Shown here: positions 11,012 to 50,374 of the stretch, piece after piece
Layout: each line of letters opens with the position of its first letter
How positions within the stretch are numbered: the first letter of the stretch is position 1
NCBI GenBank assembly: GCA_002753465.1
Contig: PEAF01000008.1
Location: forward strand, 1-51,727
DNA: 51,727 bases
Reading direction: 5' to 3'
Source of the DNA: Candidatus Omnitrophota bacterium
GTDB lineage: Bacteria; Omnitrophota; Gorgyraeia; Zapsychrales; Fredricksoniimonadaceae
Notes under the pieces: model-generated
Seen by the model: only the letters and a program-made list of their open reading frames with translations
The model's database searches: none
Told to the model about the DNA's origin: nothing
Position numbers and translations under genes: made by a program

Positions 11012-11033
11012 ACTGCCTCCCTTTGTAGAATCG

Positions 11034-15649: not shown

Positions 15650-16256
15650 GATCGCCCCTTTTTTTCAGGACATCCTCAATGACCAAACCATAGGGATTCT
15701 GAACAGTGACCGTCGCTCGAGACAAACGAACTTCAAAAATAACTTCCTCACGCGATAATTCTTCCTTACCGGCATACACCGCCCTCACGCCTGCCAACGT
15801 TACTTCAAAGCCGCGCGCCACATCCCTGACCTTCCCGGATGCTTTTAAATAAAATGAAGATGATGCCTGTGACCGCGCGATCCTGGCCAGTTCCTGATCC
15901 ATGCCGGCGCGCACCCTGGCGAGCAACCCCGGTGACATGAATTTCGATGTGCGCTCATAAACACCGGCAACCGTCTCGGGCGTATAATTAACCCAATCCA
16001 TCAACCAGCTTTCAGCAAAACTGAGCGCTGATGATGGCGGCACCTGATCAGGATACGCCACGCCTGCGGCCGCCACCGCCGGGATGTAATAGATAGCCTT
16101 AGGACGTACAGCCACCAACACTAACCCGACGGCCAAAATACCGCATACACCCCCCAGCAAATAAACAGTCATGCCCAACGACATGCTTTGGCGCTCAGCC
16201 ATGCCGTAACGCTCAAAATACACTGAACTGCGCGACCCTAACGGATGATCAGCCAT
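15636..16256 (-). CDS. traE: TraE/VirB8-like T4SS inner-membrane protein
   Basis: One N-terminal TM; 'SFAESWLMDWVNYTPETV' and C-terminal 'VRLSRATVTVQNPYGLVIEDV'; start at MADHPLGSR. Confidence 0.78.
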   Translation of the reverse strand: MADHPLGSRSSVYFERYGMAERQSMSLGMTVYLLGGVCGILAVGLVLVAVRPKAIYYIPAVAAAGVAYPDQVPPSSALSFAESWLMDWVNYTPETVAGVYERTSKFMSPGLLARVRAGMDQELARIARSQASSSFYLKASGKVRDVARGFEVTLAGVRAVYAGKEELSREEVIFEVRLSRATVTVQNPYGLVIEDVLKKRGDHEDR

Positions 16257-16560
16257 AGTGCCCTCCTCGGGGCGAATAATATCCTCCCGGAACACTAGGT
16301 GGCAATAACCCGGGTAAAGGGATCCCGACCTGATACAGCGCATGCAGCACATATCCCTGCGGCTTGCCACGCTTGAAATAAACCAGCGCAGGCCAGGCCA
16401 AAAAGATCAGCACAAGCGGGATTGCAGGTGATATCAAAATCGCGGGCACACCGAAGGCCAACATGAGCACCGCAATATCCTCCCCTTCAAGCCCTAAGAT
16501 CAAAAGGGGCTTATCAATGGTTTTAGAACAGGCTTTCACGGCATCAGCGTCCGAATACAT
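16249..16560 (-). CDS. traL: TraL-like T4SS membrane protein
   Basis: Small protein with two adjacent hydrophobic helices; overlaps traE; classic A-L-E-K-B order. Confidence 0.65.
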   Translation of the reverse strand: MYSDADAVKACSKTIDKPLLILGLEGEDIAVLMLAFGVPAILISPAIPLVLIFLAWPALVYFKRGKPQGYVLHALYQVGIPLPGLLPPSVPGGYYSPRGGHYG

Positions 16561-33026: not shown

Positions 33027-36000
33027 CTATAATTGCACAAAATCCATGGCTGAATTTATCTTTTGCTGACCTATAATGACCGGCACAAGGCCTTTAATAA
33101 TATCGGTAGCATTCATCGGCATATCCGCAGCTGTACCCGGCGCCTGATCCGCACCAAGCTTCTTACCGGTAAGGTCAAGATCGATACCACCAACCGCCGC
33201 ATTGTCAACCTGAGCCATCTTGATCAACTCTTCCCGTGTACCGCCATTGTTCAGGAAAAGCATCATCAACACGCCTTCAAGGTCCAGCCTTTCTTCATCC
33301 CCGTGCTTTTGAAGCATGGCGCGCACATCATATTTCTGGGACAAATTGGCCACAGCCTCATTCAAACTGCTGATCGTTTTCTCATCCAGAACGATCCAGG
33401 AATAATACACCCTTTGGAAGAAAGCCTTCAGCCCGTGTCCACCTGAATCGGAGCTGTTTTGATAACCCGCACGGTGCCACGCCTTGGAGCCAGGGAACAT
33501 TTTCTTATGCTTCAAAAGCCTTATCAGAAATCTCGACTCTTTGATCCAGTTCGTGTTAGGGTCTCTTAATGTAGACCCCGACCCTTCAGCGTAATAGCTG
33601 CCCACATCCTGCTGATACCAGCGCCAAACAGCATCACCCTTGGCCAGCGCTACCGCGCGCCCAGAAAGATCTTCGGCATTTTGCTCCAGCGTGATCCGAT
33701 AATTCCTGCCCTTATCCACCAACAGCTCAACCATGCCTTCCTGTGACCTGCTGAATGACAAATTATTCTTTAAAATATTATTGATATCCCTCTCGATCGC
33801 ATACGTCTTCCCGGGTTTCTTAACAGGATACGCATCTATCACGGTACTAACCTTATTCCCTATATAGTCATTGAAATCCTTAATGCTGAGCGAATGCCAT
33901 TCCGGCGCATATCCCCCCAAACTCTCCAAGCGCCCACCATTGGACATCTTAACCGTAAAGCTGGCGCCTGGCGCCCCCTGAAGAATATCCGCATCGCCCT
34001 TAACCCTGATCTCGAACGGATTGGAATTGGGCGCGAAAACAATGTTTTTCAGGAATGGGCCCGGCGCCCCGTTAAGATAAGCGCTCGACTGATAAAATAC
34101 CTGCGGCTTAGCCTGACGGACATAGGCCCAAAGCGCCGGATTTTCATATTCCCAGTTAACACGCTCACCGCCTTCAGGGAACGTGATCGTGAATTCCAAA
34201 GGCACATCCTTGGTCACCAGCGCAGGATAATTCAGATACGCCATCCCGGCCGTCGACAACTTCTTGTATTTCTCGACCAGACTGGCCATCTTCACTAAAA
34301 GCCCTTCAATGTCATCAACGCTTTTCACATCCAAAAATTGCGCATTCTTCGACCCATCCTCATAGGATTCTTTAAACAACATCGGACCAAAACCGTTGGC
34401 GATGGGTAAAAACACATCTTCCCGCGCGCCGTTAACAACAACATCCATGGCCGCCATTTTATCCATCAGCAATTTATGGATCGTGTTCGTCGCCACCTCA
34501 AGCTTGACCGCTTCTTTTTCTTTGACCGTATTGTTCTTGCTGATCCTTTTTAATAAAGCATGCGTTGCCGTCAAGGCCAGCGGCTCAGCGTCGGCAAACT
34601 TACGCGTGATGTCTTCTCTTAATTTATCAGAATCGAAATCAAGGTCAGGGATCACCATGTCAGTCAACTCGACCACCAACTCTTCCTGACGCGGCAAAAG
34701 GACCTTACCCACGTGGATGATCTCATCCTCATCCATGATATCTTCAGCAACGATCGCCAGCCGGTCGCCGGCAACAAAAACTTTGCCGCCAACCTCAAGC
34801 TTCCCTGAACCCTCCCGGACGACTTTAGCTATTTTATTCGCGGCCAGTGATACGGCGGGGATCAACCCTTCTGCGGCGATCCTGGCCAAATGCATATCAG
34901 AATCACCATAAGTCGTGATCATCCCGTTGACCTGACCGCTAACCAAAGCTTTTAAAAGGCCTGGCTGATTAAAATCATCCGAAACCAGAACAATACGGCC
35001 TTTCTTGAGCGGATCCTGATTCAAGGCCTTGACCTGATCAATATCAAACGCCAAAAATCCATCCACCGCGCCTGCTGATAATCCGATCGACTGCGCATCC
35101 AGCACATCAAAGGTAGCGCCAGACTTGATCTGACCTACCGAGCGCATCAATTTACCTTCCGGCAAGGGGACCACATTGCGGGCAATACGCCCGTCATCCG
35201 CCATCCGCATATAAACCAGTGTCTGCATGCTCGGCGGAATAAACTGCTTGTTGACCTGAACGATATAAAGCTGGCCCTTCTCGACAATGAACTCGATCTC
35301 GACCGGCCAACCGTGGTAAGCCTCAAGCCTTTCAGCTTTCTCTTTGAGCAAGGCATAAAGATTGCCTTCCTGCCGTCTGAGCCAGGAAAAATGTTTAGGC
35401 ACATTAGTCGCTTCCCAGTCCCCGTTACGGAGCTTCTCCGGTGCCATCTGGACGCCGTATGAACCTGACATTAAGAACTTCCCCGTCATAGGGCTTCTGG
35501 AACGCATCACACCACTGCCGCTTTCCGCACCAAGGTCGCCAAAGACCTCTTGCTGGACAACGATCGCCGGACCGGATGACATGGCAGCCTGCCTGTCAGG
35601 AAAAACACCTTCCGCAACAAGGATGTCCAGCACTTCGCGCGCTTCCTGGGTCTGCAAATATTCCTGCGCCTGAGGCGAATCCCAGATATCGTAGATCCTC
35701 ATGATGCTCTCAACAACTTCCTGCGGCGTCGTCACTTTTTTATCCGTAGGCAATACTCCGGGCATATTGATCGTACCCGCCGCCCTCACCGCCAAACTGC
35801 CTTTACCCTGCAAGACACCCTGTATCTTCGGGCTCTGCCAGAGCACGGCGACAACCTTATCCAAAGAGATCTTGCCGGCACGGTAATCTTTGTAAAGATC
35901 CGCAGAAAGGATCTCAAATGGCGGGATCCTGTCTTTAAGAACTTCATTGTTCTCCACCAGATGCCACCCCTTATTACCCATCTTCGGGCGATTATTCGCG

Positions 36001-37136
36001 TTGAGCACATCAACTAAATAATCTTCGGCTTTCTGAGCACCGTCCACGCGGCGCGTATTCACATCGATCACATTCAAGGCCCCGTCAAACAGCGGACTGA
36101 CGACCAGCGGCGTCGTATGGAATGCCTGCGCCATATTCGGCCCGAGGTCCAGACCACCTGAGAAGTATTTGCGCGGCAAAGCCGATCCCTGATCATCCGC
36201 CTCATCACGGATAAAATCGAACACGCCCTTTTTATACGCGTCGACATAGCGCGCGTACACCGCCTGCGCTAATGCCTTATCCTCGGTCGCCACACCCGGC
36301 GTTTTACCCTGATCGACATAAGACGCGGCCACAGCACCCTGATGAAAACGGCGCTTGTACCAGGCCGCCAGGATAAGCGAATGATAGATCTGACGCACGC
36401 GGGCAAAATGCGCGCCTGTATTGACTTCACGCTCCAGTTCCGGAATGACCACCTGACGGAAAACATCATTGATCAAGATGCGCTGCCCATTAGCCGCTTC
36501 GCCTGCGTTGATACCCTGAGACTTAAGCAACAGATAATCTTCCTCGACCATGACCTTAAGGGTGGCCTTGCTGATGACCGCCACATGATCTTTTTCCTGG
36601 ACCATAATATCGCCGGGAGTGATCCAGACCTTATTCATCACATCCAACGGGATATCATTGGTGCCGAATTCACGCTGGGCCCGCGCATACACGCGGTTCC
36701 AGAATTCTTTGCCCTGTACGCCATCCGGATAAAGCAAGGATGATGCCAGCTGTTTCAACAAATAATCCTGCGCTAAAAGATCCCGCCCCATCTCTGTGTC
36801 CGCGAGCACCAAGGGCACAATGCGGTCCTTCTCGATGGGCGAAAGGTTGACCCAGATATCTTTCTCGGGGACCGTGAGCGCTGTCAGGAAATAACGCAGG
36901 CTGCGATCCGTCTCTTCAGCCACGACCGGACCCTGGGCTTCCTCCATCAGGAATTGAAAATGATACGCATCTTTAAGATCAACACGCAATCCCTGAAACA
37001 AGGCAGGGCGCAGATCTGGGCTGGAACTGACCATGGCACCAGGCACAGGCAACCACCCCAGCTCAAAACTGTGCGCCGGCACAGATCCAAGCAAAAAGCA
37101 GAAAACCATGATTGAAGCAATGATCTTTTTTATCAT
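33027..37136 (-). CDS. Predicted exported giant protein: shared N-terminal domain + PPDK-like ATP-grasp/His swivelling domain + unique region + C-terminal GGIDL module
   Basis: Signal peptide MIKKIIASIMVFCFLLGSVPAHS; 'IWVNLSPIEKDRIVP...LLAQDYLLKQLASSLLYP...FWNRVYARAQREFGTNDIP'; PPDK-like 'AVRAAGTINMPGVLPT', 'QQEVFGDLGAESGSGVMRSRSPMTG', His motif 'GMITTYGDSDMHLARIAAEGLIPAV'; ends 'GGIDLDLTG...GLVPVIIGQQKI'. Confidence 0.85.
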   Translation of the reverse strand: MIKKIIASIMVFCFLLGSVPAHSFELGWLPVPGAMVSSSPDLRPALFQGLRVDLKDAYHFQFLMEEAQGPVVAEETDRSLRYFLTALTVPEKDIWVNLSPIEKDRIVPLVLADTEMGRDLLAQDYLLKQLASSLLYPDGVQGKEFWNRVYARAQREFGTNDIPLDVMNKVWITPGDIMVQEKDHVAVISKATLKVMVEEDYLLLKSQGINAGEAANGQRILINDVFRQVVIPELEREVNTGAHFARVRQIYHSLILAAWYKRRFHQGAVAASYVDQGKTPGVATEDKALAQAVYARYVDAYKKGVFDFIRDEADDQGSALPRKYFSGGLDLGPNMAQAFHTTPLVVSPLFDGALNVIDVNTRRVDGAQKAEDYLVDVLNANNRPKMGNKGWHLVENNEVLKDRIPPFEILSADLYKDYRAGKISLDKVVAVLWQSPKIQGVLQGKGSLAVRAAGTINMPGVLPTDKKVTTPQEVVESIMRIYDIWDSPQAQEYLQTQEAREVLDILVAEGVFPDRQAAMSSGPAIVVQQEVFGDLGAESGSGVMRSRSPMTGKFLMSGSYGVQMAPEKLRNGDWEATNVPKHFSWLRRQEGNLYALLKEKAERLEAYHGWPVEIEFIVEKGQLYIVQVNKQFIPPSMQTLVYMRMADDGRIARNVVPLPEGKLMRSVGQIKSGATFDVLDAQSIGLSAGAVDGFLAFDIDQVKALNQDPLKKGRIVLVSDDFNQPGLLKALVSGQVNGMITTYGDSDMHLARIAAEGLIPAVSLAANKIAKVVREGSGKLEVGGKVFVAGDRLAIVAEDIMDEDEIIHVGKVLLPRQEELVVELTDMVIPDLDFDSDKLREDITRKFADAEPLALTATHALLKRISKNNTVKEKEAVKLEVATNTIHKLLMDKMAAMDVVVNGAREDVFLPIANGFGPMLFKESYEDGSKNAQFLDVKSVDDIEGLLVKMASLVEKYKKLSTAGMAYLNYPALVTKDVPLEFTITFPEGGERVNWEYENPALWAYVRQAKPQVFYQSSAYLNGAPGPFLKNIVFAPNSNPFEIRVKGDADILQGAPGASFTVKMSNGGRLESLGGYAPEWHSLSIKDFNDYIGNKVSTVIDAYPVKKPGKTYAIERDINNILKNNLSFSRSQEGMVELLVDKGRNYRITLEQNAEDLSGRAVALAKGDAVWRWYQQDVGSYYAEGSGSTLRDPNTNWIKESRFLIRLLKHKKMFPGSKAWHRAGYQNSSDSGGHGLKAFFQRVYYSWIVLDEKTISSLNEAVANLSQKYDVRAMLQKHGDEERLDLEGVLMMLFLNNGGTREELIKMAQVDNAAVGGIDLDLTGKKLGADQAPGTAADMPMNATDIIKGLVPVIIGQQKINSAMDFVQL

Positions 37137-37232
37137 AGTTACCTTTATAACGTACAAATCCCTATATAAATATAAACTATTATTGTGCGTAAAGATAGGG
37201 TGGCAGGACAAATAGAAGAAAATGGTTTCTAA

Positions 37233-39935
37233 TCAAAAATTGGCTTCAACCCCTTCATTCTTTTCTAAAAGACCAAGAAATACAGGAATCGTAGTTGTTA
37301 TTGGGCTAATATCAATAATGACTGGAGTGAGGCCCAAGGCGTTTTGAAATTGTAATATTTTGGCTGGATCAAACTTAATCTGAACACCTTGACCGGAACG
37401 CTTAACTTCAACTGCTATTTTATCACGCGTAAGGTCAATGCCGCCCTTGATATTACCCATCGACTTATCAGACTGATCCGTAACCTGTTTCGTAAGAATA
37501 TCATGCAGAAAATGTTTCTCAAGGTTTGCCGTAAAAGCAAGCTTCTTATCATCTCCCTTCTCTAGTTGGATGAATTTCTCTGTGGCGGCTTGATTGAGCT
37601 CTTCCAGCCGCTGAACCGTATATTCCAGCTTAATACTCCCATCCTCGTTCAAATACGGCACTAGAAATGCTTTCCTGTAAGAGGGAATATCGATCCCATA
37701 ACTGGCGTCCTGCGCTATTCCAACCTCCTCCAAAACATTAGCATCAGCTTTAAATAAACGGTTCCTATCGCCATCTATAACCACAAAAGAACCTTCCTCA
37801 AGTTTTTCACCATTAAGAAGGACAATGCCCTGACCATCTCCAGTGAGACGCCACTCCAAAGCCTCCATATTGATCAATGAAGATATCCCTGCCAGGCGCG
37901 TCAAAACAGCCTCATGGGAAGAACTATTGCCATAATTCGTAATCAACCCGGACTGCGGATAATCAAATATCACCGAAAGAATTTCCTCCTGATTGGTTTT
38001 GTTCGCTACAAAAATAATCGGCTTTCCTTCACGCATCAGCTTACGGGCAATTTCTACATTCCAAACAAGGCGCCCCTGCATGGCGCCCGGCGTTGTGCTG
38101 CCAGCCTTAGCAAGGCCATCAGCCCTAATAGCATCTTTAACTTTATAAAGCTTTCTTGCCCCCAACTTCTGCTGCAATCTTTCCACTTGCGGAATGGCGC
38201 GGGCTTCCGTGATCTTGGCTTCGGCCAATAACTGCTGTAAATAATTTATTTCTGCCTGTGGCGCAAAGCTGATCTTACGCGTCTGAACAAAATATAACTT
38301 GCCGTCGTTAACCACGAACTCGACCTCTTGTGGACCAGCATCTTTCTCGAGTTTTTCGCCAGCCTCCAGCAGTTGACGGTAAATATCCGGTGCCGCTTGC
38401 GCAAGTGTGCTGATATCATTACCCTTTTCACCACCCGTCATCAATTCATCACCCGTGGCATTTTCCAGATAATTGCCAAAGAGCCCTGGCGCATTGGTAT
38501 TCGGATTGCGTGTCGAAAGAACGCCAGCCCCGTAAAATGGCAAGGAAGGAGCAGCTTGGCGTTGTTCTTCATATTTCCTGTCCGGAAATCCTCGATCACC
38601 GCGAATTGTCTTGTAACCAAGCTCTCTTTGCTGAATGATAATAGGAAGATCATAAACATCAGCCATCCCCTCCCGCTGACGATACGCCTTAGCTGCCGGC
38701 GAATCCCAGGCCTGGGCGACTTCACGGATCACATGGATCAAACCACTATTGCCTTCCGGGATTGTTTCAAGAACTCCAGGCATGGAACGTTTCGGGTTAC
38801 TCCTTACCATAAGCGGCAAGAATGGATCAGCCATAATATCTTTCAACTTGCTTCGTAATAATTTAATGTACCCTTCCTGCTCAAGATCAGAACCCGCAAG
38901 AATATCCTTAACAAGCTCTTCAGAAAGCACGATCCCCGGAGGATACGGCAACCCCAGGCGCTCAAATACTAAAAACCCTGCCTCTTTATTCCCCATCTGC
39001 GAAACATAAGATCCTTTCCCTAGAATCCTGACACCCAGATCCACCTTATCCTTAAGCTCCAATGAATGCAAAAGCACCCCGCCACCCTGCAAATAAAACT
39101 GAACAAAATCGCCTGAATCTTTTGGCACATAAATATAGGTGTTGTTATTACGTTCGGCATAATGCCGGCCAGGCTCTTCATTGACAACCGTTTGATTCTT
39201 CATGTAAACACCGGTGATCCCGAATTTATCTTGAAGAATATTGATAAGAGGATCATCTTGTATAACATCACCCGTGTCAGGTAATACCTTGCCGGCATTG
39301 AGGGATGCTTCCAGTGTTTCAATGCGCCCCTCGACTGTTCCTTCCGACTTAACAAATAATTTCCTCAAAGATCCATCCTCAGAAAATTCAGGCGTCGATC
39401 GATATTGCTTAGGATCCACAAATATTCGATAATAAAGATCGTACACGGACTTCAAATCCAGTTGCGCACTGACCTTCATAGCTGTGTTAATTATTTGAAG
39501 CAAACGATCATCGACAACAGGCTCAGAGATTCCAGCCTGTTTAAGTAAGCCAAGCAGATTATCTTGTGTCATTAAAGGGATCCCCATGTCTTCCAAGTTC
39601 TTCCCGGAGAATACATTCTGAAAGATCTCTTGAGGAAGACTAAAATAAAACAACAGGAACTCCCTGGCTTCATCTGGAACGATCAAGTCAATACCCATAT
39701 AATACAAATCATGCAGGTGTTCTGACTCTTGATTTGAAACTCGCTTCAACACGCGCTGATATGCGCCATTGATCCTAAATTCGTCTCTTAATATCTTAAG
39801 GAACGCACTCTCTTCACTTACGCGACTATCTAATTTTTTGTTAAACGCAAAGTCAAGTGCACCCCCAATCTGATACCTAGCTTCTATTTCTTCTCCTACA
39901 AATATATGTCCCTCCTTTCTTTTCTCTGCAATCAC
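37233..39935 (-). CDS. PPDK-like dikinase domain protein without signal peptide (apparent 3' half of a split gene; GTG start)
   Basis: 'GSYVSQMGNKEAGFLVFERLGLPYPPGIVLS', 'LMVRSNPKRSMPGVLETIPEG', 'AGVLSTRNPNTNAPGLFGNYLENATGDELMTG', 'EVEFVVNDGKLYFVQTRK', His motif 'GLITNYGNSSSHEAVLTRLAG'; C-terminal GGIDL module. Confidence 0.85.
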   Translation of the reverse strand: MIAEKRKEGHIFVGEEIEARYQIGGALDFAFNKKLDSRVSEESAFLKILRDEFRINGAYQRVLKRVSNQESEHLHDLYYMGIDLIVPDEAREFLLFYFSLPQEIFQNVFSGKNLEDMGIPLMTQDNLLGLLKQAGISEPVVDDRLLQIINTAMKVSAQLDLKSVYDLYYRIFVDPKQYRSTPEFSEDGSLRKLFVKSEGTVEGRIETLEASLNAGKVLPDTGDVIQDDPLINILQDKFGITGVYMKNQTVVNEEPGRHYAERNNNTYIYVPKDSGDFVQFYLQGGGVLLHSLELKDKVDLGVRILGKGSYVSQMGNKEAGFLVFERLGLPYPPGIVLSEELVKDILAGSDLEQEGYIKLLRSKLKDIMADPFLPLMVRSNPKRSMPGVLETIPEGNSGLIHVIREVAQAWDSPAAKAYRQREGMADVYDLPIIIQQRELGYKTIRGDRGFPDRKYEEQRQAAPSLPFYGAGVLSTRNPNTNAPGLFGNYLENATGDELMTGGEKGNDISTLAQAAPDIYRQLLEAGEKLEKDAGPQEVEFVVNDGKLYFVQTRKISFAPQAEINYLQQLLAEAKITEARAIPQVERLQQKLGARKLYKVKDAIRADGLAKAGSTTPGAMQGRLVWNVEIARKLMREGKPIIFVANKTNQEEILSVIFDYPQSGLITNYGNSSSHEAVLTRLAGISSLINMEALEWRLTGDGQGIVLLNGEKLEEGSFVVIDGDRNRLFKADANVLEEVGIAQDASYGIDIPSYRKAFLVPYLNEDGSIKLEYTVQRLEELNQAATEKFIQLEKGDDKKLAFTANLEKHFLHDILTKQVTDQSDKSMGNIKGGIDLTRDKIAVEVKRSGQGVQIKFDPAKILQFQNALGLTPVIIDISPITTTIPVFLGLLEKNEGVEANF

Positions 39936-40009
39936 AGTTTCATTGAATCAAGGGGTTTAGTATTTCAAATCTGGTCGAAATACTAAACCCCTTGATTCAA
40001 TGAAACTGT
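39934..40009. repeat. Perfect 33-bp inverted repeat with 10-nt loop
   Basis: ACAGTTTCATTGAATCAAGGGGTTTAGTATTTC (39934-39966) is the exact reverse complement of 39977-40009 (GAAATACTAAACCCCTTGATTCAATGAAACTGT). Confidence 0.98.
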
Positions 40010-42587
40010 AAAGACTCTGAAAGTTCGAATCCATTCTTAATTCATTTTCAATAGCACGGTTAACACCCCGATTAATGAACAATGGCTTCAAAACTTGCTC
40101 GACAACTTTTTCACCCAACAATAAATACATTTCAATAAAAGACGCATACCCCTCTGGCACAACCAAATAATCATCTCCCGCCACTTCATAGAAATGTCTG
40201 CCAGGGTAATCCTCGGCGTGGCGCTCTTGTTCCACATAACCACCGGCAATACCATACTTATCCTTAAGTTGACTCAGAAATGGATGCGCGTCAGTACGCT
40301 TCACGTAAGGGTCAAACTTGTCATCAGAAGTCTGATAACTTTCAAATTGCTTTCTATCACCAATATGAAAACGCCCCTCTTCATCACGAAGCTTCTTTTT
40401 CATTCTTGCTGCCCAAAATTCGGTATATGCATCAGCTAATGCTTTCTTATCATAATCTTTATTTAGCCGACTAAAAACCGAAGTAATCGCTTCCACCTTT
40501 TTCTTACTGTAATTTAATACTAAATTCTCAAGTACGAGTATCCTCGGATCCTCTTTCATGTCCGGTGTCAGTTCCTTATTATGAATTGTATTTAATCCAT
40601 TAACCGTAAGATACTGATTCACACGGCTGACTTCTTCACTTGGAACTTTAAATTCATAATATGTTCGATAAAGCGTATGATGCTCCCACCTGCCTGCAAC
40701 ATCTACCGTTTGCGAATGGACCGTGGGATGAAAACCTGCCAATTGTAATTTATCAATAATTGTAAGATCGGGTTCCCTGAGCCCATCTGAAGGGAGATTA
40801 TAGGTACGCTCGATTTCCTTCCCAAACTCTGAGCTTCTAACTTTCCATACCCGTTCACGGGATTCTGTTATGTACCTTTCAATGATAAATATAACCTTCT
40901 CTTCGATCGTCGCACTTTTTATGAGAGTAGAAAGTCTTTCAATCCTTTCAAACAACTGAGAATTCCGATAGTAATACGATTCATCATTAATAAATATGTA
41001 CAGCTCGGCTATTTCATCGATAGTAATGTTTGTGCTCTCAATTAAGAGATCAATAACAGCATAATCATAAAGATGATTGTAAAGATTGCGGCCTTTGAAA
41101 AGACCCAATTCAAGCTTAAACAAAACTAAAAGAGCATCCTTAATCCATGGCTTTTTTATTGCCTTTAAGATATCAAAAATATCCCTCCTGATATTAAATG
41201 GCTCCCTGAAATCAGTTGTTTGCTTCTTTAGAACATCTTCAAGCATAGGAATAGTCTTCACATCAAGGTCTTTTATTAAAACACTCTTTGCCAAGTTAAT
41301 ATCTTCACCCATTTCCTGGCGGACAACGACAGTAAGCGCTTGACTGATCCTTTCAATCTTTTCCGGAGCAACATTCTGTTCGTTCTCCGCGTCCATCGAG
41401 GCATCCACACTCACTAAATCAGCCTTAACAACCATCGCCCTATCAGAAATGCCTTCCGGCAACTGGGACCTGTCAGTAGTTCTTGATAGCACTTCTCTTG
41501 TCCTATACAAACCAGCCCCCCCGGAAAAATACTTCCGCGGCACGCTTTGCTTTGTGACTGGATCAATATCTTCCTTAATGTAGTTGTAAGCCCCCTTTTT
41601 GAACGCCTCAACATACTGCGCCCAGATCTTTTCCCTGGCGGCCTTATCAACAATATCAACACCGCCAACTTTCTGCTGATCAACATAGGCTTTGCCAAAA
41701 ATGGTATCTTTAATCTTGTCCTTGAACCAAATCGCCAGAATGAGTGAATGATAAACCTGCCGCAACTGCGCGAAATTCTTGCCGTCATTGACTTCTTTTT
41801 CAAGGATCGGGATCACAACCTCACGGATGATCTCTGATCCAAGATTATGGCTGTCCTGATCCTTTACCGTAACCACGGCGCTACCCTGGTTCTTTTCAAG
41901 AGCCAGATAATCCTCCTCCAAAAGAACCTTCAAACGACTCTCAACAACATAGGCAGAATCTTTATTCTCATAAATAACTGCCTTCGCCGGAACGATCCAA
42001 ACCTTATTAAAGGTATCCACAGGAATATTTGTTGTGCCGTAACGCCGTTCCGCCTCACTGTAAACCTTGGCCCAGAACTCCTTGCCGACTTTATCCTCGG
42101 GATAGATCACTGAGGCTGTGATCTGCTTCAACAAATAATCTTGTGCCAATAAGTCACGCCCCATCTCGGTTATCCCGAAAGCATCAGGAACAATACGGTC
42201 CTTCTCATAAGGCGAGAGATTAACCCACAGATCTTTCTCGGGCACCGTAAGCGATGCAAGGAAATATTTGATCAAGCGGGAGGATTCAGATGGCAGCGAC
42301 ATTGTATGTAACGCCTTTGCCCCATCACCCTTGTCCAGGATGAAATCAAGCCGGAAGGGATTATCCGGATAAACTTTAACACCCGTCAGAAGCGGCGGAA
42401 TAAAGGCAGGGCTCAAACTCACCCTTGAGCCCGGCAGAGCCAATTGAAACACTTCCTGCGCGTGGACATAAGAAAGCGGAACGATCCCGCTGTTCAGCAA
42501 GAATGCCACAAGGGCAAAAGCCGCAATGATCCTGCGCCAGGACAAATTGTTCATTTTATTCATATGTGTCATATTGAATCCCGACAA
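39957..42587 (-). CDS. Predicted exported protein with shared N-terminal domain, unknown core, no C-terminal module (apparent 5' half of a split gene)
   Basis: Signal-peptide region IIAAFALVAFLLNSGIVPLSYVHAQ; 'LWVNLSPYEKDRIVPDAFGITEMGRDLLAQDYLLKQITASVIYPEDKVGKEFW'; stop lies inside the 33-bp palindrome. Confidence 0.85.
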   Translation of the reverse strand: MSGFNMTHMNKMNNLSWRRIIAAFALVAFLLNSGIVPLSYVHAQEVFQLALPGSRVSLSPAFIPPLLTGVKVYPDNPFRLDFILDKGDGAKALHTMSLPSESSRLIKYFLASLTVPEKDLWVNLSPYEKDRIVPDAFGITEMGRDLLAQDYLLKQITASVIYPEDKVGKEFWAKVYSEAERRYGTTNIPVDTFNKVWIVPAKAVIYENKDSAYVVESRLKVLLEEDYLALEKNQGSAVVTVKDQDSHNLGSEIIREVVIPILEKEVNDGKNFAQLRQVYHSLILAIWFKDKIKDTIFGKAYVDQQKVGGVDIVDKAAREKIWAQYVEAFKKGAYNYIKEDIDPVTKQSVPRKYFSGGAGLYRTREVLSRTTDRSQLPEGISDRAMVVKADLVSVDASMDAENEQNVAPEKIERISQALTVVVRQEMGEDINLAKSVLIKDLDVKTIPMLEDVLKKQTTDFREPFNIRRDIFDILKAIKKPWIKDALLVLFKLELGLFKGRNLYNHLYDYAVIDLLIESTNITIDEIAELYIFINDESYYYRNSQLFERIERLSTLIKSATIEEKVIFIIERYITESRERVWKVRSSEFGKEIERTYNLPSDGLREPDLTIIDKLQLAGFHPTVHSQTVDVAGRWEHHTLYRTYYEFKVPSEEVSRVNQYLTVNGLNTIHNKELTPDMKEDPRILVLENLVLNYSKKKVEAITSVFSRLNKDYDKKALADAYTEFWAARMKKKLRDEEGRFHIGDRKQFESYQTSDDKFDPYVKRTDAHPFLSQLKDKYGIAGGYVEQERHAEDYPGRHFYEVAGDDYLVVPEGYASFIEMYLLLGEKVVEQVLKPLFINRGVNRAIENELRMDSNFQSLYSFIESRGLVFRPDLKY

Positions 42588-42652
42588 CCCAAGCCATGCT
42601 TTAAGTATAAAATATTATTACTCGCAATGCCATCTTGTCGTCGAATGAGCAC

Positions 42653-42688
42653 CAATAAAAAAGCCCCGGTCAACAGCACCGGGGCTTT
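42653..42688 (-). terminator. Rho-independent terminator downstream of the 42710-45976 gene
   Basis: Minus strand AAAGCCCCGGT-GCTGTTG-ACCGGGGCTTT-TTTATT; perfect 11-bp stem and T tract. Confidence 0.92.
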
Positions 42689-42709
42689 AAAGTTAAACGA
42701 TGAACGGCT

Positions 42710-45700
42710 TTATTTCGCCATAAACCCTGTCAGATCCGCAATGGGCGTGATCGACCGTATCATGGGCACTAAACCGTCATAATTGCCATTATTAAGCATG
42801 GCCGGGTCAAAGTTGAACTGGATCCCCCGCCCATCGGACTCAATGTCCATATTGACGTTATTAAGGTCGAAGTCGATACCACCGTCGATATCTGTCCTTA
42901 CATTGTTAACCTCATTCATCTGACTTGAATCATACGCCGCCAACAAATAACTGCCTTTAGTTTTTTCAAAAGTCATTGTTGGCTTTCCCGCGGGAATAGT
43001 ACCCTCAGAATCCTTTCTGATCTCTCCTGTCGATAACATTTCATATAACACAAATGTTCTATCTTTCTTATAATCATTCCCAACATCAAAAGAAGCTACA
43101 GTATCCTTTTGTGGTTCGAACGCAGTTCTCGTTTTGCTATCCATCACCAAAGTACTCAAATATGCCTCATCCATGATCTGCTCTGCAAATTTCCGGGGCA
43201 AAGTCTTGATGCCACTTAAAACACCATGCACAGTAGTAAAATATGCCTCCCTTTGATCAGGCATAACATTCTTATTAACACTAATGATCGATTGAATATC
43301 GGCATCAGACACACTAGAACCTCTTGTGATCACCGACATAACTATCTCTTTCAAAATAGGATCATCTTTGACTTTTTGCAATGCAGTACGAATATCTGTT
43401 GAAGATGTTGGAAAAGAAAACTCTTTCAACACCGTAACCGGAATGACCAGCGATGACAATCTTGATTCGAAAGGCAAGGCCTCTCGAGTGGCTCTGGGTA
43501 AAAACACAGCCTCAATATTACTCCTTTGCAAATCCTCGACTAATTTAGGATTATCAATACGGCCATTCTCCACAATGCCTTTCAAGACAGACTTAATGTT
43601 TACATCAGTCTCCTGATCAGCGATACGTCCAAGTGTTTGAAAGAACTTATTCACTGCAATCCCTTTACTCCCTGTATCCTGTCGAAGGGCTTTAAATTTC
43701 TCTCCACCCTCCAGAAATACATCTAACAAATTCTTGGAGATGGTCAGTCGAATGGTCGTATCGATCGGAACCCCCTGATCTTGCAACCCACTCAAATAAT
43801 CCCACAAGGCGTCAGGAGAACTCTTCAGTCGCGTAATCTCATCATCTGTCAACTTTTCATTCAATTCAGCAATCTTTGTAATTTCTTCTGGCTTTAATTT
43901 CTCGCCTAACAAATTACCATGATCTTGACCAACACCATATGCAGCGGTAGCCGCTTTCTGACTCTTCACAACTTTCCAGACCAAATAAGCCAATACATCA
44001 TCTTCACCAATATTCTGACTGTCTCTCCCAACTTCTGTGACATTTAACGCGGAAAGCACCTTCCCAGACCCGCTTTTTAAATATGAAAGGAAGTCTTTAG
44101 CGTTCTTAAATCGATAATGTTGTGTGGCTAACTGGATTAATTTTCTTCTATCAACCCCTTGAACACGTAAATCACTCTCGACCGCCCCAAGCCACGCGCC
44201 GGCAAAAGCATGAACTGATAAATGAGCAAAATGCTCCGGATCACTGGCAATAGGATAGAAAAAGTATGTATTTTTTTCTTCTCGCATACCAACAAAGTCC
44301 TGGACAGCTGTCATTTTATAAATATTCTCTGCCCAATGGGAGACCTGCTCATCGGGAAGAATACTCTGATCTTCAAAAGATTTCACAAATTGTTCTTGGC
44401 TTACTCCAAGAATCTTTGCTGAATCAAATCCTTCCTTTTGCATAGAGTCAAAAGCTACTTTTGCTTTCTCCAGATCATTTCCATCTGTTTCCGCCCAAAC
44501 GAATAAAGTCTTCTTAATGGCGTCTAAACGCTTAGTATCATTATTATATTTCTGATCCAAACGATTCCAGAAATCTTTAGCAACATAAACATTATCCCCA
44601 TCTTTTAATACCTCAAATGACGTACGGCCTAAAACTTCATGATATTTTATGCTCTGACTGTCTTTACTATTATACTGGCGATACTTTTCTCCAGAAACCG
44701 CCTTAAAATCATCTACTGGGATCCTTTCCAAATTTGCAACCCCCCTAAATGAAGAAGTGCTGCGAGAATTAACGTCCGTAGTAGCCGCATGATCCAATGT
44801 TAAACTTGTTTTAATATCTGCCAAGCGATCTCTGTAAGCCGTAACATCAACTTTATCGACTAACTGTGCATTCTCAACAACCTCAGCCTTTTGAGCCTTA
44901 TACCCACCCGAGAAATACTTGCGCGGAACAACTTCCTGGGTGTACTGATCCGTATCTTCCTTAATAAAGTTGTAGGCGCCCTTCTTGAAAGCCTCCACAT
45001 AACGCTCATAGATCTTCTGCTTGGCCTGAGGATCTTCGCCTTCATTGCCCAAGATCTTGTTCTGTCCGGCAAAGGTTTTTCCTAAAATGCTGTCCTTGAT
45101 CTTTCTCTCATACCACGCGGCCAGGACCAGTGCATAATGCACCTGACGCAATTGCGCAAAACTCTTGCCTTCGTTCACCTCACGCGTGATCTCAGGGATA
45201 AGGACCTCGCGGACGATATCGGACGCGAACTTGCTTACGTTATATTTATCGTTATCTGACATCTGTTCATTAGCGCCGCCGAAATTCGCCTTATTGTTCT
45301 CCAAGGAAACATAATCCTGTTCGAGCATGACCTTCATTTTGGCATCGACCAGATAAACATTATTGCCCTTCTCGAATACCTTGGCGCGATCCGGCATGAT
45401 CCATACCTTATTAAAGGTATCGATCGGGATCTGCGTGGTCCCGAATTCAGCCTGCGCCCTGGCATAAACACGGTCCCAGAAATCCTTGCCCAGAGTGCTA
45501 TCCGGGTGCATTAAAGACGCGGTCAACTGCTTCAGGATATAATCCTGCCCCAGTAGATCCTGACCCATCTCAGTTTTACCGAACTGTTCCGGGATAATAC
45601 GATTATTCTCATACGGCGAAAGGTTGACCCAAAGGTCTTTGGATGGAACAGTCAGGGCTGTCAAAAAATATTTGATCAGCTTCTTACCCTCATCCTGCAA

Positions 45701-45976
45701 CGATTGAGCGTTAAGGGCCGTATCGCCTTTATCAACAATGAAATCAAAGAGTAACGGATTGGCCGGATCGACCTTGAACCCGCGCAGGATAAGCGGCGCG
45801 AACGGCTGGCTGACCGCAAGCATGGTGCCGGGCACAGGCAACTGAGACACACTCTGAGCATACGACCTGATCGGCATGGCAACGCCCGAAAGAACAAACG
45901 CCATGGCCTGAACAAAAAGTACGCACTTGAATCCCGTGCTCTTGCGCAGTGTCTGTATACTCATATCGATCTCCAT
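42710..45976 (-). CDS. Predicted exported giant protein: shared N-terminal domain + unknown core + C-terminal GGIDF module
   Basis: Hydrophobic N-terminus ending 'IRSYAQSVSQLPVPGTMLAVSQPF'; 'LWVNLSPYENNRIIPEQFGKTEMGQDLLGQDYILKQLTASLMHP'; ends 'GGIDFDLNNVNMDIESDGRGIQFNFDPAMLNNGNYDGLVPMIRSITPIADLTGFMAK'. Confidence 0.9.
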   Translation of the reverse strand: MEIDMSIQTLRKSTGFKCVLFVQAMAFVLSGVAMPIRSYAQSVSQLPVPGTMLAVSQPFAPLILRGFKVDPANPLLFDFIVDKGDTALNAQSLQDEGKKLIKYFLTALTVPSKDLWVNLSPYENNRIIPEQFGKTEMGQDLLGQDYILKQLTASLMHPDSTLGKDFWDRVYARAQAEFGTTQIPIDTFNKVWIMPDRAKVFEKGNNVYLVDAKMKVMLEQDYVSLENNKANFGGANEQMSDNDKYNVSKFASDIVREVLIPEITREVNEGKSFAQLRQVHYALVLAAWYERKIKDSILGKTFAGQNKILGNEGEDPQAKQKIYERYVEAFKKGAYNFIKEDTDQYTQEVVPRKYFSGGYKAQKAEVVENAQLVDKVDVTAYRDRLADIKTSLTLDHAATTDVNSRSTSSFRGVANLERIPVDDFKAVSGEKYRQYNSKDSQSIKYHEVLGRTSFEVLKDGDNVYVAKDFWNRLDQKYNNDTKRLDAIKKTLFVWAETDGNDLEKAKVAFDSMQKEGFDSAKILGVSQEQFVKSFEDQSILPDEQVSHWAENIYKMTAVQDFVGMREEKNTYFFYPIASDPEHFAHLSVHAFAGAWLGAVESDLRVQGVDRRKLIQLATQHYRFKNAKDFLSYLKSGSGKVLSALNVTEVGRDSQNIGEDDVLAYLVWKVVKSQKAATAAYGVGQDHGNLLGEKLKPEEITKIAELNEKLTDDEITRLKSSPDALWDYLSGLQDQGVPIDTTIRLTISKNLLDVFLEGGEKFKALRQDTGSKGIAVNKFFQTLGRIADQETDVNIKSVLKGIVENGRIDNPKLVEDLQRSNIEAVFLPRATREALPFESRLSSLVIPVTVLKEFSFPTSSTDIRTALQKVKDDPILKEIVMSVITRGSSVSDADIQSIISVNKNVMPDQREAYFTTVHGVLSGIKTLPRKFAEQIMDEAYLSTLVMDSKTRTAFEPQKDTVASFDVGNDYKKDRTFVLYEMLSTGEIRKDSEGTIPAGKPTMTFEKTKGSYLLAAYDSSQMNEVNNVRTDIDGGIDFDLNNVNMDIESDGRGIQFNFDPAMLNNGNYDGLVPMIRSITPIADLTGFMAK

Positions 45977-46058
45977 CGTTTGTTTACTGGCAAATGGCCA
46001 ATAAGTTAAAATAAATGCTCAATATACCTCAAGCCGAACTAACTTTCAATACAATAAT

Positions 46059-46096
46059 TTGACATCCTTTGACATTTTATATTGACTTATCGTCAA
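46059..46096. promoter_or_regulatory. Cluster of TTGAC boxes upstream of the 42710-45976 gene
   Basis: TTGAC at 46059, 46069 and 46082, GTCAA at 46092; 10/13/10-bp spacing, last pair forms a palindrome. Confidence 0.4.
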
Positions 46097-46159
46097 ATAA
46101 CAAATCCACACCCAAACTTAATACTAAATATATCCGATAATAGAGTGAAAAACAAGCGG

Positions 46160-49100
46160 CTACGGGATTTTAGGCGTCGAAAGGCCTAGGGTCGACCATA
46201 GGCTATCGATCGGAAGGATCTTCACTATGATCCCCTCAACCCCCGCAAAATCCCCTTTTTCAAACGAAGCAACCATGGCCGGGTCAAGCGGCATGTCAAT
46301 TGGCCCGCTCTCACGCACAATATCCATCCCTAAATCCGTGGCGTTCAGGTCAATACCGCCAGGATCCAACATGGCCGCGTCAGATCTTGAACCGTCCTTA
46401 ACCGTCCCCGCGTCAAAATCATTCCAGTCCGCGGGAAGTTCCAACGCGAACTGAACAACTTTCCGGAAAATATCCTGCTGCCACGGACTGGCCATGGGCA
46501 ACTTACCACTACGCTGCTCGGTCAGATCCTGCAGGACCGTGGCATAGACCGTCTCAACATCCTTGCCCGTCATATGGTCCAGCCAGTCCGGTGCATCAAG
46601 GCAATGATCCTGCATGGCTTTCACCATAGAATAAAGGAAGTCATATTGATTCTCCTGCAAAGATGCGCGGTAAGCCGCCACCCACTGTAAAGCCGGCTTA
46701 GTCCCCACCTTATCTTTTGAAGTACGCTGACGCATAATGGCTTTAAAATCCAGCTGCAATCCAGCCAGCGCGTGCTCGGCAACGACCCCGGCCACACTTT
46801 CGATCATGCGATAATGCATCGGGATAGCAAATGCCCCGCCATTCTTGAACGTGCGCGCCATTTGTTTTTCTTTCGCATGGGCCCACGCGGCACCAAAGCC
46901 GCCTGTGCTCAATGAAAGCTCATGCCGGTCCTTGGGGAATAGCTTGACCTGGGCCACATAGAACGGCCGGAATACGGCTGGTATCCGGGCCAGATAATCT
47001 TCCTGCATATCGGAATTCCCCATGAACCTCAACTGGAAACCCTGCAAATCCTTAATGCCTGGCAGGTCTGGATACTGATCGATCAACGTCTTCATGAATC
47101 CTGCTGCACGCGACGCATTCTCCGTTGCGGTGATCGCATCAACAGCATCCAGCGCTTCTCCATCCAGCTTATAACTGAGCGACGCCACCCCCAGGACAAG
47201 CTCTGAACCATGGGAAGCGCCCTTGCCATAGCGCCGCGCCAGGGAGGGTGCGATATCAATGATCCCCATCTTCGCCAGTTCAGACTGCACCCGGAAGAAA
47301 TCACTGATCCACCGCTGGCCTTCGGCCTCTATCTCATCTGCCGGCGCTGACTTTTCTTTAGCATCGTTATAGCGGTCCTGCAGATCATTCAGGACACTTT
47401 CCATGAATTGCAACTGATTCATCAAAAGCACCTTTTTAAGCGCCACCTGCCTCAGCTCTCCCGCCGGCTTCACAGCCGGATCAAGATAGGGCATAACGAT
47501 GTTGTCCGGCGACAGATCGAAAATATGTCCGCCCGCGGTCAAACCCTGCGTGCGATTGAGGATATCCTGCAGATGAGCCTCCGCTTCGGGATCAAGATCC
47601 CCGAACCTGCCGCTGGGACTGAGCATGAACTTAAGCAAGAGGAATCGGCCCAGGGCTACGGTGCGCGAGCTACCCTCCCAATACATATTGCTGCCCTCAT
47701 CCAGATTGCCGATCTTCTCGCCTGGAAATGGTTTTGGCGTCGTGAACGGTTCCGGAGTTTGCGCGATCACCGTCTGCAACCAATCTTTAAAAGCCGTACT
47801 TTCCGCGGACTTCATGCCCTTGATGAGCTCATCCAGATCAAGCCCCTCGGATTTAAAAAACCTCTTATGCCGTACCGTTACCAAACCATAAATATAATTC
47901 CTGAGGATCTGCTCGGGCAGGGTCATGTTATTGATGTGAAAATGCGTCTGATGTTCAACACCCATGCCGCGGCGGCGTATCGCCTCGCGGTTCAGATTAT
48001 CAATGATCACGTCTTCTGAAAATTCACGCACGGTCAGGACTTCCGCATGCTGGGTATCCTTGCCCGAGTCCTTGCGGCCGCGTATCCACTCCCTTATCAT
48101 CGACCGAACATGCCGCACCGCTGCCGTAACATTCACATTAGCCGTAATATCAAACAGGTCAGAAAACAGGACGCCGATACCTTCACCGATAACAAGCTCA
48201 CGGTCGGACGGATCAGCTGAGGCGACAGGCGCCCAGGCTTCCAGCGCTTCAACTTTATTATCCTGCCTCAGCTCAACCGGCGCCGCACCCTCCATGGCCA
48301 GCATGAATTTACCTTCGCGCGTCATGATATCAAATCTGGAATCCTTGATGCGCACGGTAAACCCTGCGCCGGTCCGGGCGCGTTCAACGGAAACCGGCGT
48401 GCTGCCTAGAATAAGTTTCTGTGGGACAGCCCTTTTACTGATGGCCTGGCGCTCCAGAGTTTTAATCCTTTTACCGCGCTGGCCGTTTTTCTTATCCCGC
48501 TCGACCATAAATGATTCAATAACCGCTGAGGAACCCTGCCCGTCGATCACCATTTCCTGTTCACCGTCAAACAAAGTAACTTTCCCATCCTCATCCAGCC
48601 CGAATTCCAGCTGGCCCTTGCTGGTCTGGTCATAAATAGGTTTCATCGCTAATTCATTCCTGTCCAAAAGGCGCATGAACTCCTTATAGCGTTGCACGTC
48701 GAATTTCTCAAAGAAATTCTCCGTATCGACCGGGATCCGCTTTTCTTTCGGCCGCAGAAAATCATCGAACGAAAATGTCCTGACCTTCCAGGGAATGTTA
48801 TTTTGCACCAGCTCATCACGGATAAAATCCGCCACCGTCGTCTTGCCGCTGGCGAACTTGCCCGTATAGCCCATCTTGAACCTTTTTATCTTCCGATCCT
48901 CGGCCCGGGCAATGAACGGCGCAACCTGCTGATCAATGAAAACGCGTACGTTCATTTCATCCGAAAAATCACCGAAAAGTTCCGCCCGGAGGCCGTCATA
49001 AACCCGTTTAGAACGGGCGCCGATATCCACCGCAACAGCGTTCAGGCGATCGAGCAACTTCTGCTGGCGCATTTGCCGCAGGGTTTTCTGCTTGTTCAGA

Positions 49101-50374
49101 TAACTGCGCGCCCCGCCACCCTTGATGACATCGGAATAATATTTAATAGCCCGCATGTCCGTGATCTCAGCGATGGTCGGCAATTCCCCCGCCTTATCAT
49201 CCATGGCCCGGTCAGAGCTGATCGCACTGATCTTAGTCTGCACCATCGCCTGGTCACCTACCTTGAGCCCCGCCAGTTCCTGCGCAGTCACTGTTGGCAC
49301 AATAGCCATCACCCGGGATGGATCAAGAACCTCTCCGCCGGAGAAATACTTATGCGGCACACTCTGGCGACTGAGCGCATCTGTTTCATCCTTGATATAA
49401 TTAAACACGCCTTTTTTATACGCCTGAATATACTGATCATAGATCTTGTCTTTGGCCGCCGGATCATCTGCCAGCGCGCCGCTGATCTTGGCTTTATCGC
49501 TGTACGCCTGATTCAGCAGCGCATGCTTAAGTGCCTGCTTGTACCATGCGGCCAGGATCATGGCATGGTAGATCTGACGTAAGGGCGCAAAATTCTTCCC
49601 CTGATTAACCTCTTTTTCGATCTCGGGAAGGATGATCGTACGGATGATCTTTTTGACATCATCTTGAATGTCAGTCGAACGCGGTGAACCTTCCGCCCCC
49701 TGGGCTTTAGCATAACGTGCGGCCTGATAATCGCTTTCCAGCATGACTTTCAAATGCGCATCGACGACAAATGCTGTATTGTCACGTTCCAGCACCTTCG
49801 CCGTATCCGCCGTGATCCAGACCTTATTGAATGTATCGACGGGAATATCGACCGCGCTGAAACGCTGCTGCGCCTTGGCGTAGACCCTGTCCCAGAACGC
49901 CTTACCCAGGTCTTTCTCAGGGTAAATAAGCGAGGCCGTCAATTGCTTGAGCAGGTAATCCTGTGCCAGCATGTCACGGCCGATCTCCATTCTGCCCAAT
50001 GCTTCAGGCATCATCCGGTCCTGCTCATAAGGTGACAGGTTAACCCAGAAATCTTTTTCAGGAATGGTCAAAGCGGCTAGAAAATATTGGATTAATTTTC
50101 CGGATTCTGCACGCAGCAACGCGGCATGTTCACCCTCCACCTTAAACCCGGAATTCCCCGTATCCACAATGAAGTCCAATTGCAACGGATCTTCAGGATG
50201 GACTTTAAGCCCCTTGATCATGACGGGTGTGTAAGCTGAGCTGGAAAATACCAAGGTCCCGGGTGCCGGTAAATTCACTGTTTGGGCATAAGCTTGCGGC
50301 GGTATCACCGCAGAAAAAATAAGGCTGCAAATGATCCAGCATGAAACTGATCGGAAGATCAATTTTCTTATCAT
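46160..50374 (-). CDS. Predicted exported giant protein: shared N-terminal domain + P-loop kinase-like domain + unique region + C-terminal GGIDL module
   Basis: Signal peptide 'SCWIICSLIFSAVIPPQAYAQ'; 'FWVNLSPYEQDRMMPEALGRMEIGRDMLAQDYLLKQLTASLIYPEKDLGKAFWDRVYAKAQQRF'; Walker A 'MGYTGKFASGKTTVADFIRDEL'; ends 'GGIDLNATDLGMDIVRESGPIDMPLDPAMV...'. Confidence 0.9.
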   Translation of the reverse strand: MIRKLIFRSVSCWIICSLIFSAVIPPQAYAQTVNLPAPGTLVFSSSAYTPVMIKGLKVHPEDPLQLDFIVDTGNSGFKVEGEHAALLRAESGKLIQYFLAALTIPEKDFWVNLSPYEQDRMMPEALGRMEIGRDMLAQDYLLKQLTASLIYPEKDLGKAFWDRVYAKAQQRFSAVDIPVDTFNKVWITADTAKVLERDNTAFVVDAHLKVMLESDYQAARYAKAQGAEGSPRSTDIQDDVKKIIRTIILPEIEKEVNQGKNFAPLRQIYHAMILAAWYKQALKHALLNQAYSDKAKISGALADDPAAKDKIYDQYIQAYKKGVFNYIKDETDALSRQSVPHKYFSGGEVLDPSRVMAIVPTVTAQELAGLKVGDQAMVQTKISAISSDRAMDDKAGELPTIAEITDMRAIKYYSDVIKGGGARSYLNKQKTLRQMRQQKLLDRLNAVAVDIGARSKRVYDGLRAELFGDFSDEMNVRVFIDQQVAPFIARAEDRKIKRFKMGYTGKFASGKTTVADFIRDELVQNNIPWKVRTFSFDDFLRPKEKRIPVDTENFFEKFDVQRYKEFMRLLDRNELAMKPIYDQTSKGQLEFGLDEDGKVTLFDGEQEMVIDGQGSSAVIESFMVERDKKNGQRGKRIKTLERQAISKRAVPQKLILGSTPVSVERARTGAGFTVRIKDSRFDIMTREGKFMLAMEGAAPVELRQDNKVEALEAWAPVASADPSDRELVIGEGIGVLFSDLFDITANVNVTAAVRHVRSMIREWIRGRKDSGKDTQHAEVLTVREFSEDVIIDNLNREAIRRRGMGVEHQTHFHINNMTLPEQILRNYIYGLVTVRHKRFFKSEGLDLDELIKGMKSAESTAFKDWLQTVIAQTPEPFTTPKPFPGEKIGNLDEGSNMYWEGSSRTVALGRFLLLKFMLSPSGRFGDLDPEAEAHLQDILNRTQGLTAGGHIFDLSPDNIVMPYLDPAVKPAGELRQVALKKVLLMNQLQFMESVLNDLQDRYNDAKEKSAPADEIEAEGQRWISDFFRVQSELAKMGIIDIAPSLARRYGKGASHGSELVLGVASLSYKLDGEALDAVDAITATENASRAAGFMKTLIDQYPDLPGIKDLQGFQLRFMGNSDMQEDYLARIPAVFRPFYVAQVKLFPKDRHELSLSTGGFGAAWAHAKEKQMARTFKNGGAFAIPMHYRMIESVAGVVAEHALAGLQLDFKAIMRQRTSKDKVGTKPALQWVAAYRASLQENQYDFLYSMVKAMQDHCLDAPDWLDHMTGKDVETVYATVLQDLTEQRSGKLPMASPWQQDIFRKVVQFALELPADWNDFDAGTVKDGSRSDAAMLDPGGIDLNATDLGMDIVRESGPIDMPLDPAMVASFEKGDFAGVEGIIVKILPIDSLWSTLGLSTPKIP

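Follow-up and report, generated by a model that had tools for sequence, protein, structure and literature searches.

Exported two-part platforms with exchangeable payloads in Omnitrophota: a candidate effector or surface-enzyme repertoire

Why would a bacterium carry dozens of large exported proteins that begin in the same way and then differ almost completely? The question is raised by a 51,727-nt stretch of DNA (contig PEAF01000008.1 of assembly GCA_002753465.1; hereafter the window) from an Omnitrophota metagenome-assembled genome (MAG) whose assembly spans 2.18 Mb and is 64% complete. An earlier reading made from the letters alone (the sequence-only reading) covered positions 33027-50374 and described a tandem array of giant exported proteins that share one N-terminal domain (the N-domain) and carry different cores (the payloads). 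We found that the payload is in fact bracketed, by the N-domain on one side and by a short tail beginning with GGID on the other. The constant anatomy of these proteins (export signal, brackets, borders and turnover) is well shown by sequence comparison; that the payloads belong to proteins meeting other cells is what we infer. We propose, at a probability of roughly 45%, that they are Sec-exported carriers whose platform brackets an exchangeable payload, and that together they form a rapidly renewed repertoire of effectors or surface enzymes.

The four open reading frames (ORFs) that the sequence-only reading listed proved real. All lie on the minus strand, and each opens with a signal peptide and the common region of ~330 aa that it described (we count ~340 residues including the signal peptide, and ~310 aa for the N-domain itself). 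Three of them, p1 (33027..37136), p4 (42710..45976) and p5 (46160..50374), are complete bracketed proteins. The stretch from the signal peptide through the N-domain to YFSGG occupies 36153..37136 in p1 (hidden Markov model independent E-value 4.6e-131) and, as located by profile search, 41517..42533 in p3 (39957..42587), 44903..45925 in p4 and 49334..50341 in p5. The predicted PPDK-like (pyruvate phosphate dikinase-like) core of p1 and P-loop-kinase-like core of p5 were both upheld by family matches, the former in Pfam (PPDK_N, E 5.5e-9) and the latter, within a payload at 46361-49333, in NCBIfam (E 1.5e-4), with a Walker A motif GKFASGKT. The cores of p3 and p4 (the latter a payload of unknown type at 42884-44902) match no family in Pfam or NCBIfam. 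Spacing between the window genes is 21-183 bp.

The same reading passed over one ORF and a split gene. The ORF, p2 (37233..39935, minus strand), sits among the listed genes and shares its frame with p3. p2 has a PPDK-like payload (PPDK_N 1.6e-8, PEP mobile domain 5e-5) and the C-terminal tail and lacks an N-domain, while p3 has an N-domain and an unrecognised core and lacks the tail. The gap between them holds a TAA and a TGA, both in frame, within a perfect inverted repeat (39934..40009, minus strand) whose 33-bp arms, 39934-39966 and 39977-40009, flank a loop of 10 nt. Because p3 and p2 share a frame, have complementary N-domain and tail, and are parted by stops inside a perfect inverted repeat, they are probably the upstream and downstream halves of one gene, interrupted by a real hairpin insertion or by an assembly fold-back.

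What is the N-domain? Its copies in the window are 46-52% identical, end in PRKYFSGG or PHKYFSGG, and score profile E-values of 1e-131 to 1e-167, well past chance. The alignment contains (near-)invariant features (WVNLSP.E, LL..D..LK, P....G..FW, KVW, P..E.EVN.G..F..LRQ and YFSGG); it contains no conserved His or Cys, and therefore no obvious catalytic site. The claim that no characterised family accounts for the domain was borne out: searches of Pfam, NCBIfam and PDB sequences returned nothing for it. A structure prediction, which had also been proposed, drew on the mature part of p3 (41499-42455, minus strand). The AlphaFold model of the N-domain (88 sequences; predicted local distance difference test score (pLDDT) 80, predicted template modelling score (pTM) 0.75) is alpha/beta with long helices, and Foldseek found no relative of it (best E 0.13 in PDB and 0.079 in BFVD). 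On this model, the N-domain is a previously undescribed domain with a predicted novel fold.

Are these proteins exported? We scored 120 N-termini with regular expressions rather than a trained predictor, and found a hydrophobic core in 119, an AxA-type site in 113, RRxF in two and a lipobox in none. Sec export followed by signal peptidase I cleavage is thus the well-supported prediction. The earlier idea of an export and anchoring platform with swappable payloads holds for export and for exchange, but anchoring is doubtful in Omnitrophota because neither a lipobox nor a C-terminal membrane anchor was seen there; only the Streptomyces relatives described below have one.

The second bracket had been missed. 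"Complete divergence after PRKYFSGG" is true of the cores, but at the far end p1, p2, p4 and p5 share a tail of ~45-65 aa that starts with GGID. By alignment it lies at 33030..33191 in p1 (GGIDLD...), 37236..37445 in p2 (GGIDLTRDKIAVEVKRSGQGVQIKF...), 42713..42883 in p4 (GGIDFDLNNVNMDIESDGRGIQFNF...) and 46163..46360 in p5 (GGIDLNATDLGMDIVRESGPIDMPL...), and tail searches of the own genome returned these at E 1.3e-10, 1.0e-21, 2.7e-20 and 1.1e-18, respectively. Of 27 complete N-domain proteins in the own genome, 25 have the tail; among 80 loci from other Omnitrophota MAGs, it is found in 56 of the 62 that encode complete proteins, and a tail-bearing ORF follows four of the six exceptions. Tail and N-domain counts per genome run parallel (33/36, 37/45, 42/60, 56/60 and 5/6). 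Since the tail is common to complete proteins, the payload is bracketed by YFSGG and GGID. Divergent families with shorter or different ends keep the motif, which argues that GGID marks the downstream payload border over much of the class: a protein of the G151 genome, which is a single contig, ends in '...GGIDLRNMRINLR' with the GGID motif kept, and families f15, f29 and f30 carry 'GGIDFRALPMTIQ...' ~100 residues before the C-terminal end. In these three families (L152, L154, L155, L156 and L158) a second conserved C-terminus, GGIDFRxLPxTIQ followed by a helical-looking region of ~90 aa (IPSxxRxKEY..., LEEE), replaces the tail of family f1. The tail sequences themselves have neither a C-terminal membrane helix nor a basic end of the PEP-CTERM, GlyGly-CTERM or LPxTG sorting kind. 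Two other ideas about the tail were dropped: kinship to TsaD in a PDB search was noise (E 0.29), and a phylum-wide pattern search for a coreless ancestor, in which YFSGG would run directly into GGIDL, gave only N-domain/payload starts.

How are the payloads exchanged? On platforms that are alike, 120 payloads fall into 91 clusters, and where payloads are homologous they are 21-54% identical (mostly ~30%) as against 55-89% for their N-domains. The borders can be read directly from paralogues. In MAG JABDGZ, two proteins whose N-domains are 89% identical have payloads (977 and 753 aa) between which no similarity was detected. Their genes match at 76% from the 5' ends as far as the SGG codons, become unalignable in the payload and align again from the GGID codons. 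In the coordinates of the same-MAG pair L063/L056 (76%), homology stops at L063:7038, at the SGG codons, and restarts at 9966, at the GGID codons; L050 and L093 follow the same pattern. Payload turnover is also apparent between genomes. The p4 and p5 payloads have no relative (tblastn, E<=1e-6) in 31 other genomes of the family, including two same-genus genomes of 94-96% completeness and little contamination. The distribution of the p1 payload is patchy: it is found full-length at 35-43% identity in four genomes of other genera (orthologues of like architecture in G028, G007 and G027, and a full-length core match in G001) and was not detected in the same-genus genomes G003, G004 and G006. In the p1 orthologues, however, the N-domain tracks the payload (62-65% identity vs a median of 44%), and so whole-gene inheritance, together with loss, also contributes to the payload pattern. 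Because some genes, such as p1 and its orthologues, are passed on vertically as entire units, swapping is an evolutionary pattern that not every gene displays. By these alignments, codon-sharp payload borders and fast turnover on a conserved platform are well shown.

The array in the window is only part of the family. The four tandem genes are there as described, but the own genome has ~37 N-domain places on many contigs, amounting to ~6.7% of assembly bases. In our sample the N-domain is present in 32 of 32 genomes of the family (2-69 copies each), 78 of 81 of the order and 90 of 285 of the phylum, every positive falling within one GTDB class; nearly all named relatives are labelled Omnitrophota MAGs. 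Profile searches of the kind that the sequence-only reading had proposed found in this sample a multi-copy domain of one Omnitrophota class, and neither a known family nor single-copy housekeeping genes. Outside the phylum the N-domain occurs on six Streptomyces megaplasmids, and a phage collection gave no match. Five IMG/VR contigs filed as viral (L179-L183) carry N-domains at 37-59% identity and may be Omnitrophota viruses or misfiled host DNA.

The Streptomyces relatives are proteins of ~760-816 aa with a signal peptide, a variable region, GG(I/V)DF, the N-domain, GGVD(L/F), a membrane helix and a basic end; three carry LAxTG. Their N-domains (E 1.2e-44 to 2.7e-25 in the four scanned) align end to end with those of Omnitrophota, YFSGG falling on the Streptomyces xxGGVD. 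As in Omnitrophota, a GGID motif closes the payload, but the platform comes after the payload and does not enclose it. Homology between the tail and the Streptomyces GGID segment is only suggestive, as the tail profile gave no significant match to it (E 0.04-0.4). The variable regions contain, by eye, deaminase-like HxE...CxxC in L184 and nuclease-like D..ExK in L185-L187, and no recognised type in L188. A gene for a PrsW-family intramembrane protease (L188:2034-3518) lies directly upstream of one Streptomyces N-domain protein.

What do the payloads contain? We scanned about 100 cores against Pfam, 65 of them from other MAGs. Own-genome payloads, most of which have no Pfam match, include CofD with a MobA-like nucleotidyltransferase and HAD, an SNF2 ATPase, an NAD epimerase, GH13, HEAT, a weak glycosyltransferase, a metallophosphatase, HD, an alpha/beta hydrolase, PPDK-like proteins and a P-loop kinase. 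Those of other MAGs add radical SAM (five), HATPase_c (four), protein kinase, His phosphatase, B12-binding, ATP-grasp, methyltransferase, glutamate and alanine dehydrogenases, transketolase, GGDEF and TPR. Where checked, catalytic motifs look intact in the SNF2 payload (Walker A, DEVH and RxxRxGQ), HAD (DxDDT), the nucleotidyltransferase (GGxxTRLG) and the PPDK mobile domain (its His); unlike these, the epimerase payload lacks a clear YxxxK. From their domain content, the payloads are apparently enzymes of a nucleotide-rich, cytosol-type compartment that have been put behind a Sec signal peptide.

How might such proteins work? After Sec export and removal of the signal peptide at the AxA site, the N-domain and tail would act jointly, either by forming a single structural unit or by serving as a paired signal, and the platform would carry the payload to the cell envelope or past it, or keep it there, where it could work on or inside other cells. 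More speculatively, the double-glycine borders might act as flexible hinges, or the payload might be released by cleavage at them, and the repertoire would serve a host-dependent or predatory lifestyle. Support for this effector or surface-enzyme interpretation is indirect and comes from the toxin-like relatives and from the phylum itself: host-dependence traits are common in it (PMC10066038), and its predatory member Candidatus Velamenicoccus archaeovorus is reported to make open cytoplasmic contact with prey (PMC13153191). Several observations weigh against it. We found neither a secretion machinery linked with the family nor a dedicated neighbour gene that recurs; the latter candidate was rejected because the flank families that do recur are generic (sensor kinases and ABC transporters). 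TraC-type systems are missing from most N-domain genomes, including G001, which has 60 copies and no TraC match. Many payloads look metabolic or housekeeping, unlike known effectors. The toxin-like motifs of Streptomyces had no Pfam support at E 0.5 in the three proteins scanned. Finally, the tail modelled alone has no predicted fold (pLDDT 62, pTM 0.24), and we rejected an independent tail fold on that account.

A stronger form of the same proposal, which we offer tentatively, is a hitherto undescribed delivery system in which a two-part platform, N-domain and GGID tail, would accept almost any enzyme within its double-glycine borders and deliver dozens of cytosol-type enzymes (nucleic-acid ATPases, radical SAM enzymes, kinases and metabolic enzymes) into host or prey cells, with a related toxin-carrying form in Streptomyces.

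Might the proteins instead serve the cell's own extracytoplasmic chemistry? On this doubtful account they would be periplasmic or envelope enzyme scaffolds acting on sugar, phosphate or polymer, for example in material from prey or the environment, with the platform as a solubility or docking module. Sec signals without known outer-membrane targeting, the lack of secretion-system co-occurrence, and payloads such as GH13 amylase, epimerase and glycosyltransferase-like, metallophosphatase-like and HD proteins are all consistent with it. However, SNF2, radical SAM, PPDK, kinases and nucleoside triphosphate transferases need ATP, S-adenosylmethionine or nucleotides and make little sense in the periplasm, and the absence of p4, p5 and full p1-type payloads from same-genus genomes would be odd for a cell's own metabolism.

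It is unlikely that the family consists of classical antibacterial polymorphic toxins delivered by the platform and accompanied by immunity partners. The constant platform with variable payload, the sharp junctions, the tandem arrays, the toxin-like motifs of the Streptomyces relatives and the PrsW protease adjoining one of them (PrsW has been connected with polymorphic toxin release; PMC3482391) would all fit. Yet the gaps in the window hold no small immunity-like ORF, no flank family of that kind recurs, the payload is internal rather than C-terminal, and payloads are mostly multidomain enzymes of 400-2500 aa. No toxin family is among the Pfam matches shown for the scanned cores, most of which matched nothing.

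Still less probable is a selfish or non-adaptive expansion, in which recombination would homogenise the ends while arbitrary genes are captured and largely decay. The great diversity of payloads suits it, and so do split ORFs and palindromic DNA. Besides p3/p2, one in-frame stop divides N-domain and tail ORFs in L071 (TAA, after residue 760) and L088 (TAG, after residue 837), for which a pseudogene, sequencing error or read-through are candidates. Two families of short palindromic elements, encoding 'RTSDGSHVGDGPHAIP' and 'VGVGEDLVSSPKRADIKSAPT', are inserted in frame at two N-domain places (first set L011:4742-4801, L013:5018-5061 and 15202-15249, L015:4046-4102 and L025:3687-3739; second set L018:15145-15208, L014:601-660 and L017:4207-4262). 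In the own loci that were fetched, nine of the nine places found fall within N-domain genes; we take these elements to recall the Rickettsia palindromic elements. Apart from the hairpin between p3 and p2, only one perfect inverted repeat with arms of 22 bp or more occurs in 282 kb of the own genome, at L023:5834-5888, just after an N-domain gene. Against decay stand the catalytic motifs intact in most inspected payloads, open frames that reach 4897 aa, and the conservation of the p1 type over its full length between genera (35-43% identity).

The window also contains an F-type-like T4SS (type IV secretion system) or conjugation-like cluster at 8403-16370 (8.4-16.4 kb, minus strand), which includes small ORFs and homologues of a secretin (PF00263, 9440-11011), TraC/VirB4 (11034-13586) and TrbI/VirB10 (13833-14990). 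TraC was found in 25 of the 285 phylum genomes and in 9 of the 11 genomes sampled from f1, the family of the own genome, with a modest overall enrichment among genomes that have the N-domain (14/90 vs 11/195, p=0.011). That the payloads are effectors of this system is very improbable, and largely refuted in general even if conceivable within one family: the enrichment follows f1, a Sec signal is atypical for T4SS effectors, the co-occurrence expected of type IV effectors does not hold across N-domain genomes, most of which lack TraC, and we rejected the T4SS as a universal partner.

Why does this matter? Omnitrophota are abundant, ultra-small and presumably dependent on hosts, yet annotation has so far failed on their large proteins. 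The pair of modules is diagnostic, and through it a candidate interaction repertoire can be retrieved from any such genome. The N-domain, with no known fold, also connects these uncultured bacteria with tractable Streptomyces.

How do these proteins compare with known systems? For the p1 and p2 payloads alone, the likeness is to pyruvate phosphate dikinase, in ATP-grasp and swivelling His-domain homology with the His of the mobile-domain region kept by eye. Unlike that enzyme they are exported, they score 143-148 bits (p2) and 55 bits (p1) against cut-offs of 456-843, and only PPDK_N and the mobile domain were found, with no PEP-utilising TIM barrel detected in either. Unrelated enzymes that start with a signal peptide and finish, at the very C-terminus, in a conserved non-membrane tail recall cargo of the type IX secretion system. 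This tail differs in being ~60 aa long, in starting with GGID and in not being predicted as a stable beta-sandwich; it matches no NCBIfam sorting-tail model at E<=1, and a large N-domain is present in addition. The giant ORFs of Omnitrophota (PMC10066038; Ca. Velamenicoccus archaeovorus) come from the same phylum and are likewise very long, of exported or surface type, and linked to host interaction. They differ in exceeding 20 kb and in being described as poorly conserved and having few domains, and neither the N-domain nor the GGID tail was found for them in the passages that were read. Finally, polymorphic toxin systems (Zhang et al. 2012; PMC3482391) differ from ours in that our payload, large and enzyme-like, sits inside the protein between two brackets, with no immunity genes seen, on an N-domain that has no Pfam or NCBIfam match and reaches up to ~70 copies per genome. 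With those systems the Omnitrophota proteins share a constant trafficking module, variable payloads, sharp recombination junctions, an export signal, a species-private payload repertoire and, through Streptomyces, toxin-like relatives.

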